A DNA stretch of 64,000 nt. Origin: Neisseria subflava (GTDB lineage Bacteria > Pseudomonadota > Gammaproteobacteria > Burkholderiales > Neisseriaceae). Positions 16,032-28,839 of the stretch are shown one piece after another. Where the stretch lies: the NCBI RefSeq assembly GCF_003044935.1, contig NZ_POXP01000002.1:186001-250000 (forward strand), given 5' to 3'. The notes under the pieces are model-generated. The model was not told the origin of the DNA. It saw only the letters and a program-made list of their open reading frames with translations, and searched no databases. Both the position numbers and the translations under genes were made by a program. Numbering within the stretch: position 1 is the stretch's first letter; every line of letters starts with the position of its first letter.

Positions 16032-16661
16032 TTACAGTTTGAAAATAGAAGCCTCTGCTAAATCATGGATGGTATCCAACGCAGATGAACCCGTACCATT
16101 GCTTGAATAGGTCGCATTGTCTGAGGAAAGACCGGCAGAAGAATCAAGAGGATCAGCCTCACCAAACGCACGGCTCAAAAGTTCATCACCATCGAAAGCT
16201 TTGGATTCCAATATCGGCTTCGCGGCCGGCTGCGCAGGCTCGAAACCTTCCCACTCACGCGGATCAAGGCGGATGATATGGTCATCATCATAGCCGTCAT
16301 TAGGACCTTTGCCTTCTCCTGAAAAAGTGCCATCCCATTCGCGCGGATCGAGGCGGATGGTATGGTCATCATCATAGCTGTCATTAGGACCTTTGCCTTC
16401 TCCTGAAAAAGTACCGTCCCATTCGCGCGGATCGAGGCGGATGGTATGGTCATCATCATAGCCGTCATTAGGTCCTTTGCCTTCTCCTGAAAAAGTACCG
16501 TCCCACTCGCGCGGATCGAGGCGGATGGTATGGTCATCATCATAGCCGTCATTAGGACCTTTGCCTTCTCCTGAAAAAGTACCGTCCCATTCGCGCGGAT
16601 CGAGGCGGATAACAAAATCTTCAGAATCACCTTCTTTACTTGGTTGATGTACTTTAGCCAT
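16032..16661 (-). CDS. Protein with 28-residue tandem repeats, unknown function
   Basis: A 209-residue acidic protein with no signal peptide or membrane helix. After a short leader (MAKVHQPSKEGDSEDF) come repeats of 28 residues: IRLDPREW occurs five times (starting at residues 18, 46, 74, 102, 130), each of the first four followed by DGTFSGEGKGPNDGYDDDH with at most one change. The C-terminal 70 residues are Ser/Gly/Ala/Asp-rich and end in a hydrophobic IFKL. The start has a perfect AAGGAG. I do not recognise the family. Multi-core peptide precursor, surface or secreted repeat protein are options; no maturase or secretion gene is adjacent. Confidence 0.85.
   Translation of the reverse strand: MAKVHQPSKEGDSEDFVIRLDPREWDGTFSGEGKGPNDGYDDDHTIRLDPREWDGTFSGEGKGPNDGYDDDHTIRLDPREWDGTFSGEGKGPNDSYDDDHTIRLDPREWDGTFSGEGKGPNDGYDDDHIIRLDPREWEGFEPAQPAAKPILESKAFDGDELLSRAFGEADPLDSSAGLSSDNATYSSNGTGSSALDTIHDLAEASIFKL
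16259..16611 (-). repeat. 84-bp tandem repeat array (about 4.2 units)
   Basis: An 84-bp unit repeats in frame within the preceding CDS; copies differ by only a handful of bases (for example G/A in the Gly/Ser codon of copy 3). Near-identity at synonymous sites points to recent expansion or conversion and a likely variable copy number. Confidence 0.9.
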
Positions 16662-22710: not shown

Positions 22711-22772
22711 AAGGGAGATGGCAGAGGCCGTCTGAAAACGGGAGGAGCAATTTTGCCGAAACCTCCGCCGTC

Positions 22773-22792
22773 ATTCCCTCGCAGGCGGGAAT
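22773..22792. repeat. dRS3-type neisserial repeat
   Basis: ATTCCC-N8-GGGAAT (ATTCCCTCGCAGGCGGGAAT), the 20-bp dRS3 core of neisserial intergenic mosaic elements. It lies in the gap between uvrD and the Dnd-like island and marks a recombination-prone junction. Confidence 0.8.
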
Positions 22793-22806
22793 CCAGAAGT
22801 AGAAAT

Positions 22807-22903
22807 GTAGGTTGGATACTCGTATCCAACAAAAACATTGACGCGTCTATCGTTTCCGAAAAAAACGCTGTTGGAAAATGTCGGATTCGAGAATCCGACC
22901 TAC
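22807..22903. repeat. MITE-like element with 24-bp inverted ends
   Basis: The left end (GTAGGTTGGATACTCGTATC...) and right end (reverse complement GTAGGTCGGATTCTCGAATC...) match at 20 of 24 positions around a 49-bp AT-rich centre. Each end is itself a small hairpin. It is similar in design to 63308-63413. Confidence 0.6.
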
Positions 22904-22928
22904 GGCTGCTGCTTTTGGGGCGATGAAA

Positions 22929-22940
22929 AAGCAGCCTGCA
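22929..22940 (+). repeat. Foreign-dialect DUS (AAGCAGCCTGCA)
   Basis: An exact match to the dialect described for some Kingella (AG-king3DUS), not the Neisseria AG-DUS. It sits 25 bases past the 3' end of the sulfur-binding-domain gene, at the island edge. Confidence 0.7.
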
Positions 22941-22965
22941 CTTTAAATTTCACTCGTTTCCCTGC

Positions 22966-23442
22966 TCATAAGATTTCAAACAATTGTGCCAACAGCACAT
23001 CCTGCAGCACCACCCGCGTTTCGGCCTGCCGAAGCAGCCGTGCGAGTAGTGCATCGATTTCTACGCCCGAAACAGTTTGACGCAGGCTGGATAAAGCCTT
23101 CATGCGGTTTTTTTGTTCGAATGCATCTTCCATACCAGGTTTGACACAAAAATACCAAAACGGCTCGGTCCTCATGTGGTAGAGCGGCATGCCGAAATTT
23201 TCTTGGTGGTATGCGTTTGCCACCCACCGCTGCCATTGCTGTCTGAATATTGCCTGCCATTCTTCCAAAAGCGTATCCGAAAAATCAATTTTTTCTGTGT
23301 GCAGGCTGCCTGATTCATACAGCAGGCATAAACTGTATAGAAGGATGAATTTATGCGGGGCACGGTTGTTTGCTTGTGTAAAACTTGTATGCAGGCTGCG
23401 GAATTGTTCCGCATATTTTAATAATGCTGCCAAATCTTTCAT
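22966..23442 (-). CDS. Orphan sulfur-binding-domain (phosphorothioate-DNA reader) protein
   Basis: A 158-residue protein. It matches the N-terminal SBD of ScoMcrA-type phosphorothioate-dependent HNH nucleases: NNRAPHKFILLYSLCLLYESG (the APHKxxLL box), a middle IDFSDTLLEEWQ, MPLYHMRTEPFWYF (the PFxHLxxxxFW box) and LLRQAETRVVLQDVLLAQLF (the RxxLxxxLLxxYF end). No HNH domain follows, so it may bind modified DNA without cutting, or be a deletion remnant. ATG 23442 overlaps the XRE stop as ATGA, so the two are one operon. Family call by motif memory, not by search. Confidence 0.65.
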   Translation of the reverse strand: MKDLAALLKYAEQFRSLHTSFTQANNRAPHKFILLYSLCLLYESGSLHTEKIDFSDTLLEEWQAIFRQQWQRWVANAYHQENFGMPLYHMRTEPFWYFCVKPGMEDAFEQKNRMKALSSLRQTVSGVEIDALLARLLRQAETRVVLQDVLLAQLFEIL

Positions 23443-23690
23443 ACCGCTTCCTTCTGCAAACTTTGCAATACCTCCTCCGGTTGCCAATTCAATGCGCGGC
23501 AATAATCAATAAACTCAAAGATATCCAGCCGCCTGTCACCTGTTTCCACTTTTCCTACGAACGAATGCACCACATTCATCCGTTCCGCCAATGCACGCTG
23601 CGACAACCCCAAATCCAATCTTCTGCGGATAAGGAGTTGTCGCAAATAGGTGTGTTCGGCAGAGTGTACCGACAAACGAATATTTCTCAT
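23439..23690 (-). CDS. XRE-family regulator of the Dnd-like island
   Basis: An 83-residue protein that is essentially one helix-turn-helix: LRQLLIRRRLDLGLSQRALAERMNVVHSFVGKVETGDRRLDIFEFIDYCRAL. A start at ATG 23690 (MRNIRLS) is more likely than 23711, which would run into operator repeats. It is divergent from dndC across a short region with a perfect inverted repeat, the usual layout of an autoregulated restriction-modification controller. Confidence 0.85.
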   Translation of the reverse strand: MRNIRLSVHSAEHTYLRQLLIRRRLDLGLSQRALAERMNVVHSFVGKVETGDRRLDIFEFIDYCRALNWQPEEVLQSLQKEAV

Positions 23691-23697
23691 GCGCTCC

Positions 23698-23736
23698 GAT
23701 TTTAGGTACAATCACGCATGCACCTGTTTTAGGTGC
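23698..23736. promoter_or_regulatory. Putative operator of the XRE regulator
   Basis: GCACCT-GTTTT-AGGTGC (23720-23736) is a perfect 6-bp inverted repeat. Its right arm extended leftwards, TTTTAGGTGC, recurs as TTTTAGGTAC at 23698. The sites sit between the xre and dndC starts, so occupancy would affect both promoters. Confidence 0.6.
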
Positions 23737-23747
23737 AAATAAGAAAT

Positions 23748-24869
23748 ATGTATAAAATGACCGTAATACCCATACACCCTGCCAACCCGTTCGACGCTAT
23801 ACGCCAAAACATCACTGAAGAATATTTGAGCGAAACGCAGCACTACCCTTGGATTGTTACCTTTTCAGGCGGCAAGGACAGCACCCTTGTCGCCCATTTG
23901 GTGTTTGACATGCTGCTTTCGCTGCCGCCGATGCTGCGGACGCGGCAGGTGTTCTTCATTTCCAACGACACGCTGGTGGAAAGCCCGCTGGTAGTGAAAC
24001 ACATGCGCCAATCTTTGGCAGAAATTCTGCGTGCCGCTGAAATTTTCAGGCTGCCCGTCAGCGGCGAAATCACCGTGCCGAAATTGCAGGACACCTTTTG
24101 GACGCTACTCATCGGCAAAGGCTACCCCACGCCCAACCGCTCAATGCGCTGGTGCACCGACCGCCTGAAAATCCAGCCTACTAGCGGCTACATCCTGCAA
24201 AAAGTAAACGAAAACGGCAAAGCCATCATCGTACTGGGCGTGCGCAAAGACGAATCTGCCACCCGCAAAGCAAGTATCGAAAGCCACCAAAACTTGGAAA
24301 ACAGCAATCTGACCCCGCACAGTGATTTGAAAAACGCGTTGGTGTACCGACCGATTGTCGATTTGAGTACCGACGACGTGTGGGAATTCCTTGCTGCCAA
24401 CGACCCGCCCTGGGGAGGCGCACACAGCGATTTAATCAAGCTCTACCGCGAAGCCGCTGGCGGCGAATGCCCGATTGTACTGTCGCAGGAAGAAGCCCCT
24501 GGCTGTGGCACCAACTCTAGCCGTTTCGGCTGTTGGACGTGTACGGTGGTCAATAAAGATAGAAGCCTGCAAGGATTTGTGGATGCGGGGAAAACCGAAT
24601 TTGCACCGTTAATTGAATACCGCGACTGGCTGGTGGACATCCGCAACAAACCCGAATACCGCCAGGCCGAACGGCGCAACGGAAAACTTACGTTCAAAGG
24701 CGGCAAACACATCCCCGGCCCGTTCACCATAACGGCGCGGCAGGAAATGCTGGCGAAGCTGCTAAAAGTGCAGGCTGCTTTCGGCGAAGAACTGATTTCG
24801 CAGGACGAAATCGACCTAATCAAACAGATTTGGACGGAAGATATTTTGAAACAAGGAGACAGACGATGA
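23748..24869 (+). CDS. dndC: DndC-like phosphorothioation protein (PAPS-reductase-like)
   Basis: A 373-residue ATP-pyrophosphatase/PAPS-reductase family protein. SGGKDS (residues 40-45) is the ATP PP-loop; RSMRWCTDRLKI is the mid motif; a four-Cys set (ECPI, PGCG, FGCWTC) towards the C-terminus matches the DndC Fe-S cluster pattern. DndC activates the DNA for sulfur insertion, with sulfur from a cysteine desulfurase. No dndA is here, so a chromosomal IscS could serve. Starts at 23748 or 23757 are both possible (a GTG at 23733 lies in the operator). It overlaps the next gene as ATGA. Confidence 0.85.
   Translation: MYKMTVIPIHPANPFDAIRQNITEEYLSETQHYPWIVTFSGGKDSTLVAHLVFDMLLSLPPMLRTRQVFFISNDTLVESPLVVKHMRQSLAEILRAAEIFRLPVSGEITVPKLQDTFWTLLIGKGYPTPNRSMRWCTDRLKIQPTSGYILQKVNENGKAIIVLGVRKDESATRKASIESHQNLENSNLTPHSDLKNALVYRPIVDLSTDDVWEFLAANDPPWGGAHSDLIKLYREAAGGECPIVLSQEEAPGCGTNSSRFGCWTCTVVNKDRSLQGFVDAGKTEFAPLIEYRDWLVDIRNKPEYRQAERRNGKLTFKGGKHIPGPFTITARQEMLAKLLKVQAAFGEELISQDEIDLIKQIWTEDILKQGDRR
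24769..24780 (-). repeat. Foreign-dialect DUS inside dndC
   Basis: TGCAGGCTGCTT is the exact reverse complement of AAGCAGCCTGCA, the same dialect as at 22929. Confidence 0.7.
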
Positions 24870-25090
24870 ACCCGGAAACCGAAGCACAAATTGCCGACCT
24901 ACTGCTGTGGCGCGACCACGACGCGCGCCATTTGCTGGAAGTGGCCGCAAAAAAACACAATGTCAAAATGGAAGCGGCGGCGGAGCTTCTTGCTTGGGCG
25001 CGCCAGGTGCAGCGCAAGGGTGACAAATACGGCGGCATGAAGCAGAAGCTGGACAAAATCTTCGAACAACAGGATTTATGGGGGAAATAA
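24866..25090 (+). CDS. Small Dnd-system-associated protein
   Basis: A 74-residue, charged, helical protein (LLLWRDHDARHLLEVAAKKHNVKMEAAAELLAWARQVQRKGDKYGGMKQKLDKIF). ATG 24866 overlaps the dndC stop (ATGA) and has AAGGAGA, so it is translationally coupled; dndD follows by one base. I recall small proteins of this type annotated only as 'DNA modification system-associated'. It does not look like DndE. A scaffold or cofactor for the DndC-DndD complex is a guess. Confidence 0.75.
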   Translation: MNPETEAQIADLLLWRDHDARHLLEVAAKKHNVKMEAAAELLAWARQVQRKGDKYGGMKQKLDKIFEQQDLWGK

Positions 25091-25091
25091 G

Positions 25092-27146
25092 GTGTATATC
25101 AAGCGAATAAAACTGAAGAATTTCAAGTCCTACGCCGAAGCTGAATTTGAATTTCCCCCGCCTGAAAAAGGGCGAAACCTGATTTTGGTCGGGGCGGAAA
25201 ACGGGCACGGCAAAACTACGCTGCTGGAAGCGATATATCTGTGCCTGTATGACAAAGACGCGATTGACAATTTCCAGCGTGCCGGTTTGGTCGACAGCAG
25301 ATTCAAATACCGCGATTTCATCAGTCAGTCCTTATATAAGGAAGCCACTGCCGCCTTTGCGCGCTCTTATGAAATAGTGCTGGAAATGGATTTGATGGAA
25401 AGCTATGCCTTTGGCGAACAGGGTATCCGTATTGTTCGTAAATGGTATTTCGACCATTTGGGCCTCTATCAGGAAGAAAGCAACCAGCTGCTTTTGTATT
25501 ACATAGGCAAAGACGGCCTGAAAAAACCTATAGACGGTGAAGAAATCCAAGAATATTTGGAAGATTACGGCCTGCCGTCAGAATATTCTGCTTTTTTCTT
25601 TTTTGATGGCGAACAATTGGTCAATATCGCCAAGCAGTTTGGTGCGGGCGGCTGGATGAGCGGCGCACTGAACAAACTTTTGGGCATCGACCTGCTTAAA
25701 GCCTTGCAGGCAGAGGTGAGAGAATACGGGCAGAAGCTATACAGCGAAAAGGCGGGTGGCAAGCAAAAAGAGCAGCTTTCTGAAACCGAACGCCATTTTC
25801 AGGCTGCCTCTGAAGAGTTGGCGCGTCATACCGAAACCCTGCAACAGTGGCAGCGGCAGAAGCAGGAAACCGAAGCTCGGCAGGACGACTTGCAGATGCG
25901 GTTGCGGGGCGCGGGCAGCACTCAGCATTCCAAAGAGCTGATTGCCCAAATCGAACAATGTGAAGCCGAAACCGCCCAACTGAACCAAAACATTCAGGCA
26001 GCCTTGTTAGCCTTGCCGCTTGCCCTACTGCCTGAAAGCGATATCACCGCCCTGAAAACGCAGCTTCACGGTGATTACCGCCGCCTGCTGCACGAGCAGG
26101 GCAAAGAGCAGAACGCGCACCGGTTGGAAGAATTCTGGCAAGCGTTTTCCAACAATCCCAACACGCTGGAACTACTGACGCCGAAAATCCTGAAAGACGA
26201 ACTGCTCAAACGTGCTCTGAACGAATCATGGAACGTTCTGTTCGATAAACTGCCGCCAGATGCATCTGACCCCATGCAGCACAATTACTTGGACGATTCA
26301 TGCTTTCAGGCTGCCTTCGAAAACATCGCCCGCATCACATCGCCTGACAACGACCTCGGCAGCCTAAACAAAGAGAAAAATCGCCAGGAAACCACACTGG
26401 CCGAACTGAAACGCTGCTACGAACAGCAGAAAGACAGGCTTGTCGATTCCGACCGCCTGCGCGAAGAATTGGAGCGTGTTCAGAAAGAGCTGGCCGAAGC
26501 CAACCAAAAACTCGGCGGCGTGCAAAACAGCATCGAGCGCAGCCAAACCGAAGTCAACCGCCTGAAAACCGAATGGGAAACCCTGCAACAGGCACTGATA
26601 GACAGCCTGCCCAAACAGCAAAAGGCCGAGCGTGCCGAGGCCGTGTGCCGCCTGATAGACGACTTGGCCGTGCAACTACGCCGCAGCAAACTGGATGCAT
26701 TCCGCAAAACCGTAAACAGCCTGCACAAGAAAATCGCCCATGACAAACAAATCGGTGACATCGAAATCGACGAAAATGGCAACCTGTCGCTGTACAGTCA
26801 AAACGGCATGGCTATCGACTTCCAGCCGCTTTCCCACGGTGAAAAGAAAATACTGGTGCTGACCCTGATTGCCGCATTGGCTGAAATTACCGATTACCAA
26901 GTTCCCTTCGTGGTCGATACCCCGCTCACATCTTTGGACACGCGCCATTGCGACAACCTAGTGCACTACTGGATGAATTTAAACCGCCAAGTGATTATTC
27001 TGGTGCAGAGTGCCGAAATCGGTTCCGAAACCTATCAAAAGCTCAACGCACAAGGATGCATCGGCAAGAGCTACCTTATCCGTTCTCAAATCCTACAAGG
27101 TGGCGGAAAATGCGCCACCGTTACCCCGCACGCCTATTTTGAATAA
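25092..27146 (+). CDS. dndD: DndD-like SMC/Rad50-type ATPase
   Basis: A 684-residue ABC-type ATPase with long coiled coil. N-terminal IKLKNFKSYAEAEFEF, Walker A GAENGHGKTTLLEAIYLCLY (about 34-53; GHGKTT is a Dnd-type variant), then coiled coil about 210-310 and 425-530, and C-terminal LSHGEKKILVLTLIAALAE signature with Walker B VPFVVDTPLTSLD. No CxxC zinc hook is seen. DndD is a core phosphorothioation subunit. GTG start at 25092 with AAATAAGG upstream. Three foreign-dialect DUS lie inside the gene. Confidence 0.87.
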   Translation: MYIKRIKLKNFKSYAEAEFEFPPPEKGRNLILVGAENGHGKTTLLEAIYLCLYDKDAIDNFQRAGLVDSRFKYRDFISQSLYKEATAAFARSYEIVLEMDLMESYAFGEQGIRIVRKWYFDHLGLYQEESNQLLLYYIGKDGLKKPIDGEEIQEYLEDYGLPSEYSAFFFFDGEQLVNIAKQFGAGGWMSGALNKLLGIDLLKALQAEVREYGQKLYSEKAGGKQKEQLSETERHFQAASEELARHTETLQQWQRQKQETEARQDDLQMRLRGAGSTQHSKELIAQIEQCEAETAQLNQNIQAALLALPLALLPESDITALKTQLHGDYRRLLHEQGKEQNAHRLEEFWQAFSNNPNTLELLTPKILKDELLKRALNESWNVLFDKLPPDASDPMQHNYLDDSCFQAAFENIARITSPDNDLGSLNKEKNRQETTLAELKRCYEQQKDRLVDSDRLREELERVQKELAEANQKLGGVQNSIERSQTEVNRLKTEWETLQQALIDSLPKQQKAERAEAVCRLIDDLAVQLRRSKLDAFRKTVNSLHKKIAHDKQIGDIEIDENGNLSLYSQNGMAIDFQPLSHGEKKILVLTLIAALAEITDYQVPFVVDTPLTSLDTRHCDNLVHYWMNLNRQVIILVQSAEIGSETYQKLNAQGCIGKSYLIRSQILQGGGKCATVTPHAYFE
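25798..25809 (-). repeat. Kingella-dialect DUS inside dndD
   Basis: TTCAGGCTGCCT, reverse complement of AGGCAGCCTGAA (AG-kingDUS). Confidence 0.65.
25993..26004 (-). repeat. Simonsiella-dialect DUS inside dndD
   Basis: TTCAGGCAGCCT, reverse complement of AGGCTGCCTGAA (AG-simDUS). Confidence 0.65.
26305..26316 (-). repeat. Second Kingella-dialect DUS inside dndD
   Basis: TTCAGGCTGCCT, reverse complement of AGGCAGCCTGAA. Confidence 0.65.
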
Positions 27147-27157
27147 AGGGAAACGCC

Positions 27158-28753
27158 ATGTACGAATTGGACGACGACAAAATCTGCAACGACAAATACT
27201 GGGTAACGCTGACCGAAAACACCCACATCAAATCCAGCGGCGAAGCAGCCAAAATCCTAAAACAGCTCGAAAGCGACGGCGTGCTGCCTAAAATGCAGAA
27301 CCATGAATGGGCGCGGCTGTGCATCGCCTTCTGCTTTGCCAAAACCAAAAATATCAAAGATTGGGAACAGAAACCCAGCATGGACGGTGGTTTGGAAATC
27401 GCATCGTTCAACACCTGCTTTAATCAAAACGGCAAAAAAGGCGAAGAAAAATTTTGGCTAGCCTACATCAGCCAGCGCATGTTTGACGAAGTGCCAGAAC
27501 GGAAATTCACCAAAAAACACTTGTTTGCCTATATCCAACTGGCGTGGCACAACGGCGCGAAACTGCTGGAGGAACGTTACCGGAAAGCCTTGGACTACTG
27601 TGACGGCAGCATCGTGGAAGCCAAAAAAATATTCTTTGACGAACTGGCCGGCTTGGCGGCGCAACACCGGGGCAGTGGTTCGGACGGTGCTGCCCCTGCC
27701 GTTTCAGGCAGCCTGCACCCGGCCGCTTCCGGCACGGAAGAACAAACCTGCATCAAACTCAAAACCGCACTGGACAAAACAGTCGGCAAAGGCGGTACGA
27801 TACAGCCTGAATACGGCGGCGTGCGCTATGACTGCTTGCGCGTGCAGTTTGACCGCTATGTGGATTTGGAAAAATACCACAGCCAAATTTGCTCCGAATT
27901 GGGCATCGGCGATGACGAAATGCGCTGCGGACGCATACGCGGCGAAGCCAATACATGGCACATCAATATCCTGCGCCCGCAAGACACTTGGCGGCAATAC
28001 GGGCAAAGTGAGTTTCAGACGGCCTTACAGCAATACCGCGCATCGGCACAGCAATTCAGATTGCCAGTGTGTATCGGTTTGGACGAACGCGGCGAACCCG
28101 TGTTTCAAGATTTTGCCACCGCGCCGCATGTGATGGTAGGCGGGGAAACGGGGGCTGGGAAATCGGTACTGGTGCGCTCAATGCTGGCTTCCCTGTTCGA
28201 ACTCGCTCCTCAGAATGAAACGGAAATCGTCGTGTGTTATTGCAAAGTTTCTGCGGATTTCGCCGCCTTCAAAGACCGTCCGAATTTATGGCAGGGGCGC
28301 ATAGTCAGCGATGCGGAAGAAGCTGCTGAAATATTGTCGTCTTTTGCTGACGAGATGGATAAACGATACCGCCTGATGGACGAATACGCTGCAAAGGATA
28401 TTGCAGAAGTCCCACAGCACGCCCGTCCAAAATATGTTGTTATCGTGATTGACGAACTGGCCGACCTTATCGATGTCAGCAGTGACGCAGAAGGGCATTT
28501 GGTACGGCTGGCACAAAAAGCGCGCTCCGCAGGAATGTATCTGTTATTGGCAACGCAACGCCCCGATGCGAAAACACTCAGCGGCCGCCTACGTGACAAC
28601 CTGCCGACCAAAATTGCGTTGAAAACAGGCAAACGCCAGTCTTCCGAGATTATCTTGGGCGAGCGCGGTGCTGAAAACCTGACGGCCAAAGGCGATCATT
28701 TGGTCAAATGGAACAATGAAGCAGCACGTTTTCTGCACGGGTATAATGTATAA
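27158..28753 (+). CDS. DndE-FtsK fusion protein
   Basis: A 531-residue two-part protein. Residues about 20-165 resemble DndE (ILKQLESDGVLPKMQNHEWARLCIAFCFA, LEIASFNTCFN), the nicked-DNA-binding subunit. Residues about 180-270 form an FtsK-beta-like segment (CLRVQFDRYVDLEKYHSQICSELG). From about 300 comes a FtsK/SpoIIIE motor: Walker A VGGETGAGKSVLVRSML (about 326-342) and Walker B KYVVIVIDELADLI (about 424-437), then LLLATQRPDAKTLSGRLRDNLPTKIALK. It starts 11 bases after dndD. The fusion suggests a translocase that loads or moves the modification complex. One Neisseria AG-DUS lies at 28014. Confidence 0.75.
   Translation: MYELDDDKICNDKYWVTLTENTHIKSSGEAAKILKQLESDGVLPKMQNHEWARLCIAFCFAKTKNIKDWEQKPSMDGGLEIASFNTCFNQNGKKGEEKFWLAYISQRMFDEVPERKFTKKHLFAYIQLAWHNGAKLLEERYRKALDYCDGSIVEAKKIFFDELAGLAAQHRGSGSDGAAPAVSGSLHPAASGTEEQTCIKLKTALDKTVGKGGTIQPEYGGVRYDCLRVQFDRYVDLEKYHSQICSELGIGDDEMRCGRIRGEANTWHINILRPQDTWRQYGQSEFQTALQQYRASAQQFRLPVCIGLDERGEPVFQDFATAPHVMVGGETGAGKSVLVRSMLASLFELAPQNETEIVVCYCKVSADFAAFKDRPNLWQGRIVSDAEEAAEILSSFADEMDKRYRLMDEYAAKDIAEVPQHARPKYVVIVIDELADLIDVSSDAEGHLVRLAQKARSAGMYLLLATQRPDAKTLSGRLRDNLPTKIALKTGKRQSSEIILGERGAENLTAKGDHLVKWNNEAARFLHGYNV
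27703..27714 (-). repeat. Simonsiella-dialect DUS inside the DndE-FtsK gene
   Basis: TTCAGGCAGCCT, reverse complement of AGGCTGCCTGAA, in the linker between the two domains. Confidence 0.65.
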
Positions 28754-28782
28754 TTTGTTCAACCATCCTTTGCAAAGGTCTC

Positions 28783-28822
28783 AGGCCGTCTGAAACTTAA
28801 ATGGGGTTTCAGACGGCCTTTT
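28783..28822. terminator. Inverted-DUS terminator at the right end of the Dnd-like island
   Basis: AGGCCGTCTGAAAC / GTTTCAGACGGCCT followed by TTTTCC, in the native AG dialect, between convergent genes. Confidence 0.85.
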
Positions 28823-28839
28823 CCTTTGGGGATTAGTGA

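Follow-up and report, generated by a model that had tools for sequence, protein, structure and literature searches.

The window, by which we mean the whole 64,000-nucleotide stretch of Neisseria subflava DNA that was analysed, carries a group of six genes at positions 22966-28753. Two of them, encoding an SBD protein and an XRE-family regulator, are on the minus strand, and four, namely dndC, a gene for a 74-amino acid protein, dndD and a DndE-FtsK fusion gene, follow on the plus strand. This order, taken from the open reading frame (ORF) list, is the one given in the original prediction; we picked the start codons of the SBD, XRE, dndC and 74-aa ORFs inside the listed frames. The features, with the evidence for each, are the following.

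22741..28782, no strand: whole inserted segment (repeats at its borders; island-free relative at the same site)
22966..23442, minus: standalone SBD protein, 158 aa, no nuclease domain (8h0l match)
23439..23690, minus: XRE-family regulator, 83 aa (HTH_31, HTH_3, PADLOC control protein)
23691..23738, no strand: divergent promoter region with two boxes, putative XRE operators (alignment by eye)
23748..24869, plus: DndC core, 373 aa (TIGR03183; motifs)
24850..27750, plus: putative exchange cassette, made up of the last dndC codons, SP, dndD and the DndE part (~50% mean nucleotide identity to relative L034)
24866..25090, plus: Sp-DndD small protein (SP), 74 aa (PF20306; hhalign to DndC C-termini)
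25092..27146, plus: DndD ABC-type ATPase, 684 aa (PADLOC DndD and PbeC; motifs)
27158..28753, plus: whole DndE-FtsK fusion gene (ORF list)
27158..27697, plus: DndE-like N-terminal part, fusion residues 1-180 (hhalign to canonical DndE)
27698..27800, plus: variable linker and module junction, fusion residues about 181-214 (identity switches near here)
27801..28753, plus: FtsK/SpoIIIE motor part, fusion residues 215-531 (PF01580; FtsK structures; motifs)

The repeats that border the inserted segment contain the DNA uptake core GCCGTCTGAA, and an inverted repeat (22720-22737 / 28807-28824) flanks the island. The neighbouring genes encode a UvrD helicase on one side and a DUF2339 membrane protein on the other. 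In a related locus, L091, the flanks of the window (up to 22740 and from 28783) are about 700 bases apart and there is no match to the island. The ~6-kb segment would be considered an insertion, since L091 is without it at the same place. Elsewhere in the window, at 16245-16610, there is an 84-bp tandem repeat (4.4 copies, 95% matches) with a period divisible by 3.

The DndC protein scores 371 bits against TIGR03183, above the cut-off of 290.4, and both its PP-loop SGGKDS and its cysteine motif CGTNSSRFGCWTC are intact. The match spans profile positions 4-364 of 447; at 373 aa the protein is without the C-terminal segment of canonical DndC, six ORFs of which, read whole, have 489-541 aa. The adjacent 74-aa protein belongs to the Pfam family Sp-DndD (PF20306, 8.2e-14) and gives a weak match (E 0.022) to positions 401-457 of the DndC-like model PRK06850. 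When 14 of these small proteins were aligned by hhalign with the C-termini of eight DndC proteins, P was 3.8e-6, and the real score of 38.6 compares with 16.4 for the best of 100 shuffles. In PMC12193691, DndD binding is mapped to DndC residues 433-482 and the last DndC helix. Because DndC is shortened and the small protein matches DndC C-termini, we infer that the latter is a separately made chain corresponding to the end of DndC that docks on DndD. The split would thus mark which piece of the sulfurtransferase is the likely docking adaptor that has to match DndD. The DndC that adjoins a DndE-FtsK fusion in another Pseudomonadota family (L103) is 436 aa long, unsplit and retains its C-terminal tail. 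The small protein had no tblastn match in L085, from another genus of the Neisseriaceae; at that locus the fusion gene is followed by an ORF of 232 aa (L085:1527-2225) for which neither Pfam nor PADLOC gave a match.

HMM searches had been proposed for five of the proteins. Those for DndC and FtsK gave clear matches, DndD fell under its TIGR03185 cut-off (228.7 against 245.85 bits) and DndE gave no match. DndD does match the PADLOC DndD model (259 bits, E 2.4e-77) and scores best on the PADLOC PbeC models (340 bits); it has an ABC signature, LSHGE, a Walker B motif, PFVVDT, and, by eye, a Walker A motif, GAENGHGKT. The FtsK domain is C-terminal in the same ORF as the DndE-like part, beside DndD, and was recognised both by FtsK_SpoIIIE (PF01580, 4e-30) and by FtsK structures (5e-34), with Walker A GETGAGKS and Walker B IVIDE.

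The N-terminal part of the fusion is more difficult. None of the HMMs tried found DndE in residues 1-180, and TIGR03184 and PF08870 had no match in the window genome, so that the DndE homology claimed in the original prediction is at most remote. In a profile-profile comparison, 15 Neisseriaceae N-termini aligned with seven canonical DndE proteins over residues 22-138 (P 3.5e-5, probability 72%); in a rerun with other settings the real score was 37.8, whereas none of 100 column shuffles scored above 26.3. Structure prediction, which had been suggested as a check, was no help: the model is poor (pLDDT 54) and the structure search gave no useful match. The relative in L103 (500 aa) has an FtsK half that is 37.6% identical to that of the window; Pfam calls DndE in its N-terminus (residues 6-121, 1.7e-7), and FtsK alpha and FtsK domains follow. 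When the DndE part was aligned with that of fusions found in other Pseudomonadota families, the result was not significant (P 0.25). We take the N-terminus to be a divergent DndE because of the profile-profile match, its place after dndD and the L103 relative; this is remote homology, short of proof.

No ORFs for dndA, dndB, dndFGH or HNH proteins were seen at the locus in the ORF list. The absence of the dnd genes, as originally stated, therefore holds for the locus; genome-wide, the DndH model TIGR03237 was silent in the window genome, as it was on the positive controls. IscS can substitute for DndA. The window genome encodes an IscS (777.7 bits, cut-off 643.2) at G000:C1:640982-642187, and so the requirement for a desulfurase, DndA or IscS, would be covered.

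No family in Pfam, NCBIfam or PADLOC matched the SBD protein above noise. Its predicted SBD fold is supported by a match to the solved SBDHga1 (8h0l, E 4.2e-12), and HMM searches of the 158-aa ORF found no HNH nuclease, in keeping with the earlier claim. The sulfur pocket of ScoMcrA includes H116, R117, Y164 and P165 (PMC6224610); by our own reading, the PHK and MP residues of the window protein line up with H116, R117 (K in most), Y164 (M here) and P165, and M in place of Y164 is reported in PMC6224610 as strengthening binding in ScoMcrA. The XRE protein has HTH_31 and HTH_3 domains and matches a PADLOC control protein (1e-5). The region that separates XRE from dndC contains a palindrome, TGCACCTGTTTTAGGTGCA, together with an imperfect copy of it; by eye, 12 of 14 aligned loci have both boxes and the other two have one.

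In all, 83 genomes of the family were surveyed, including 46 of Neisseria. The dnd module is present in 15 of the 46, with a full-length fusion gene in 12 (one of them a MAG in which the module is split over contigs, another with an incomplete dndC) and in degraded form in three (G008, G017 and G021). Three full-length relatives are in other Neisseriaceae genera (L075/L083, L076/L084 and L078/L085). Since the same layout recurs in other genomes, the arrangement is not due to chance. The module is found at different genomic sites and is decayed in some; the degraded copies in L044, L045 and L046, from three Neisseria genomes, have stops or frame breaks.

XRE is present at 13 of the 15 Neisseria dnd loci (missing from L036 and L046), and tblastn found no match to it in L084 and L085. 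SBD genes are present in eight of the 46 Neisseria genomes, all of them among the 15 that have dnd (Fisher 2.5e-5, with kinship ignored). A linked, intact SBD gene is present at only three of the 15 Neisseria dnd loci (the window, L034 and L090), plus L083 outside the genus, and so the SBD protein cannot be essential. Neisseria bergeri has a truncated SBD gene of 74 aa (L033:4068-4292) beside an intact XRE gene and dnd operon. Four dnd-bearing genomes have an SBD gene away from the operon, 32-39% identical; that of G016 is short and on another contig than dnd. The SBD genes of G001 and G016 are beside the same permease-like gene (L086:4049-5649 and L089:3929-5460), which could mark a second site of insertion. 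Also near the SBD sequence of G016 is a SIR2-like piece that matches the PADLOC candidate PDC-S25, and in G038 a DUF559 gene of a restriction-endonuclease-like family (L087:2015-2398) is ~1.5 kb from the off-operon SBD gene.

These patterns bear on what the SBD protein does. Instead of being a regulator, it could cover phosphorothioate sites and so act as a protector or anti-restriction factor, which we regard as possible, although we lean against it. The absence of a nuclease, the off-operon homologues in the four dnd-bearing genomes and the nine loci at which XRE has no neighbouring SBD, which indicate that XRE is independent of SBD, would all fit such a role. However, the SBD and XRE genes overlap by four nucleotides in the window, L034, L083 and L090, which suggests joint control.

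The island has a mosaic structure. The window and L034 have islands at the same site, and their SBD, XRE and DndC proteins and FtsK halves are 97-99% identical. Protein identity along the operon is 97% for DndC, 46% for SP, 37% for DndD, 33% for the DndE part and 99% for the FtsK part. The reverse situation is seen with L083, from another genus, where DndC (95%), SP (91%), DndD (89%) and the DndE part (98%) are alike and FtsK is only 44% identical; similarly, L038 and L043 are 94% identical in DndC, 87% in DndD and 47% in FtsK. At the DNA level, in 50-base blocks, the window and L034 are 100% identical at 23551-24450 and 86-100% to 24850, then ~50% on average to 27750, 86-98% to 27950 and 100% beyond. 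This profile has the pattern that a double crossover would leave, with one exchange in dndC and the other in the start of the FtsK part. In all three pairs (window/L034, window/L083 and L038/L043), the joint is in the linker of the fusion gene, near codons 170-215.

Across 13 loci, the pairwise identities of SP, DndD and DndE correlate with each other at 0.93-0.98, and with those of FtsK at 0.32-0.35 and of DndC at 0.43-0.44 (12 loci for DndC). The blocks would be loosely, not fully, independent, because even these weaker cross-module correlations exceed permutation (Mantel p 0.0005-0.006). The AU tests (LG+G4), for which the clades were picked after the identities had been seen and long branches were flagged, rejected a grouping of the window with L034 and L033 for the cassette (p 2.4e-66) and, for FtsK, groupings of the window with L083 (p 3.2e-59) and of L038 with L043 (p 2.3e-110), the latter a motor swap. 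In the DndC tree, the window groups with L083 (95/96, bootstrap not settled) and apart from L034, which is what a donor tract at 24450-24850 would produce. Judged by these alignments and trees, homologous recombination explains the mosaic pattern, and the putative SP adaptor travels with DndD in the exchange. Between 25800 and 27710, the cassette has DNA uptake motifs of the Kingella and Simonsiella dialects (two of each) and none of the host type, whereas 85 host-type cores are present in the rest of the window, outside the island; the foreign dialects hint at the donor lineage.

One might ask if the mosaic is an artefact of assembly or mis-binning, as the window genome is in nine contigs and one relative (L032/L047) is a MAG. 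We consider this very improbable. The L034-type cassette recurs in N. bergeri L033 and the window type in L083 and G032 (L047, L090); because cassette and motor types both recur in separate genomes, an assembly error is unlikely, and L034 and L083 are each on a single contig of more than 2 Mb.

Taken together, we think it rather likely that the window contains a mobile island for writing phosphorothioates, of the DndE-FtsK kind already published, the three blocks of which have recombined separately. Its probable function is to introduce sulfur into the DNA backbone. The original proposal, in which a DndCDE-type writer includes a DndE-FtsK fusion and is accompanied by a lone SBD reader, is supported. 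In the scheme that we favor, housekeeping IscS would supply sulfur to the DndC core, which the 74-aa protein would dock onto DndD; the DNA would be held by DndD and the DndE part, and the FtsK half would move it through or along the complex. XRE, bound at the twin boxes, would repress or tune both divergent transcripts, and the lone SBD protein would bind phosphorothioated DNA as a reader and feed back on the XRE switch, without cutting. The chemistry, the action of the motor, the roles of XRE and SBD and the effect of the exchange are what we infer from the genes.

Alternatively, the island may amount to a complete defence system: either the FtsK-fused complex itself would restrict invading DNA that lacks the modification, or the nuclease would be encoded by a distant gene. 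HerA/FtsK capture has been tied to defence in print (PMC10853773), XRE resembles the control proteins of restriction-modification systems, and a module that sits at varying sites and is sometimes decayed (three of 15 Neisseria loci) would fit with defence, as would the DUF559 gene in G038. In L103 the two genes directly after the DndC-DndD-DndE-FtsK operon resemble AriA and AriB of PARIS (L103:10527-12501). However, when the ORF lists for the 2.5-3 kb or so around the Neisseria dnd operons were inspected by eye, no nuclease gene was recognised, the neighbours of the window island are UvrD and DUF2339, and DndH had no match in the window genome, with the controls silent too. We regard a complete defence system as unlikely.

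Returning to the writer island, the exchange raises the question of what determines where the sulfur goes. Two specificity models have been published. In one, the core motif is determined by a loop of DndC (PMC12193691); in the other, DndE is proposed to set the target together with its ATPase, through a DNA-binding interface that is highly variable (PMC10853773). We tentatively suggest, while leaning toward doubt, that SP-DndD-DndE is a natural specificity cassette, that the FtsK half is a second unit traded separately and that the SBD protein reads the mark, closing a feedback loop. If this is true, strains sharing DndC and the motor would mark different sequences, as happens with the target-recognition subunits of type I restriction systems. 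Alternatively, the DndC loop alone sets the motif, and cassettes are swapped as a way of evading phage inhibitors, or so that DndD, SP and DndE stay matched when recombination has occurred by chance; to us this is an evenly balanced proposition. The loop is GYPTPNRSMRW in the window, L034, L033, L083 and L090 and GYP[TS]PNR[SN]MRW in 17 of 17 rows (16 genomes, with two of the loci degraded), and its NRS resembles the TRS given for GAAC/GTTC in PMC12193691. With so conserved a loop, the DndC model predicts one motif, or nearly so, for all of the strains, whereas under the DndE-with-ATPase model a swap of the cassette should change the motif. The window and L034 are a natural swap of DndD-DndE under a nearly unchanged DndC and motor, and the window and L083 a natural swap of the motor under a little-changed DndD-DndE. 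These natural chimeras can separate the two models without any designed change, and relatives with separately traded cassettes and motors are ready-made strains for asking where the sulfur goes.

Several parts of the island are already known. The DndE-FtsK fusion, DndE with a helicase domain, Sp-DndD and a solved SBD (8h0l) are all in the published record, and oral Neisseria strains with phosphorothioation genes are listed in PMC7464106. The original prediction could match the fusion to no named system, and this has to be corrected: fusions of DndE with HerA/FtsK domains, next to an ATPase related to DndD, are in print (PMC10853773; Rakesh, Aravind and Krishnan 2024), and 'DndEi' (Zheng 2016), a DndE with an added helicase domain, is cited in PMC7464106. 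Absence of DndA, DndB and DndFGH is likewise common in print. No precedent was found in the open-access papers searched for the module exchange, the split-DndC reading or the operator-XRE-SBD unit; the first two, absent from the original prediction, are the more unusual features of the island.

In comparison with known systems, the window has the DndC, DndD and DndE-like core of canonical dndABCDE plus dndFGH, but its locus is without dndA, dndB and dndFGH, its DndC is probably split, its DndE-like part is fused and XRE would be the local regulator. With the PbeABCD/CxC systems it shares a DndD that scores best on PbeC models, whereas it has DndC and no PbeA-type gene was seen at the locus. 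Its SBD sequence and sulfur-pocket residues are as in SBDHga1 (8h0l) and the ScoMcrA-type SBD restriction enzymes; unlike the latter, as described in PMC6224610, it has no HNH or SRA domain and is encoded with XRE. DndEi, compared by its description in PMC7464106, likewise belongs to a phosphorothioation cluster and joins DndE to an ATPase/helicase domain, although it is described as a helicase and the window protein has an FtsK-type motor. In layout the window probably resembles the clade-3 DndE-HerA/FtsK fusions (PMC10853773), which have DndE and an FtsK-type ATPase in one polypeptide beside a DndD relative; to these the window adds features that the available text of that paper does not describe for them, namely a putative split DndC, module exchange, a putative XRE operator region and a standalone SBD protein.
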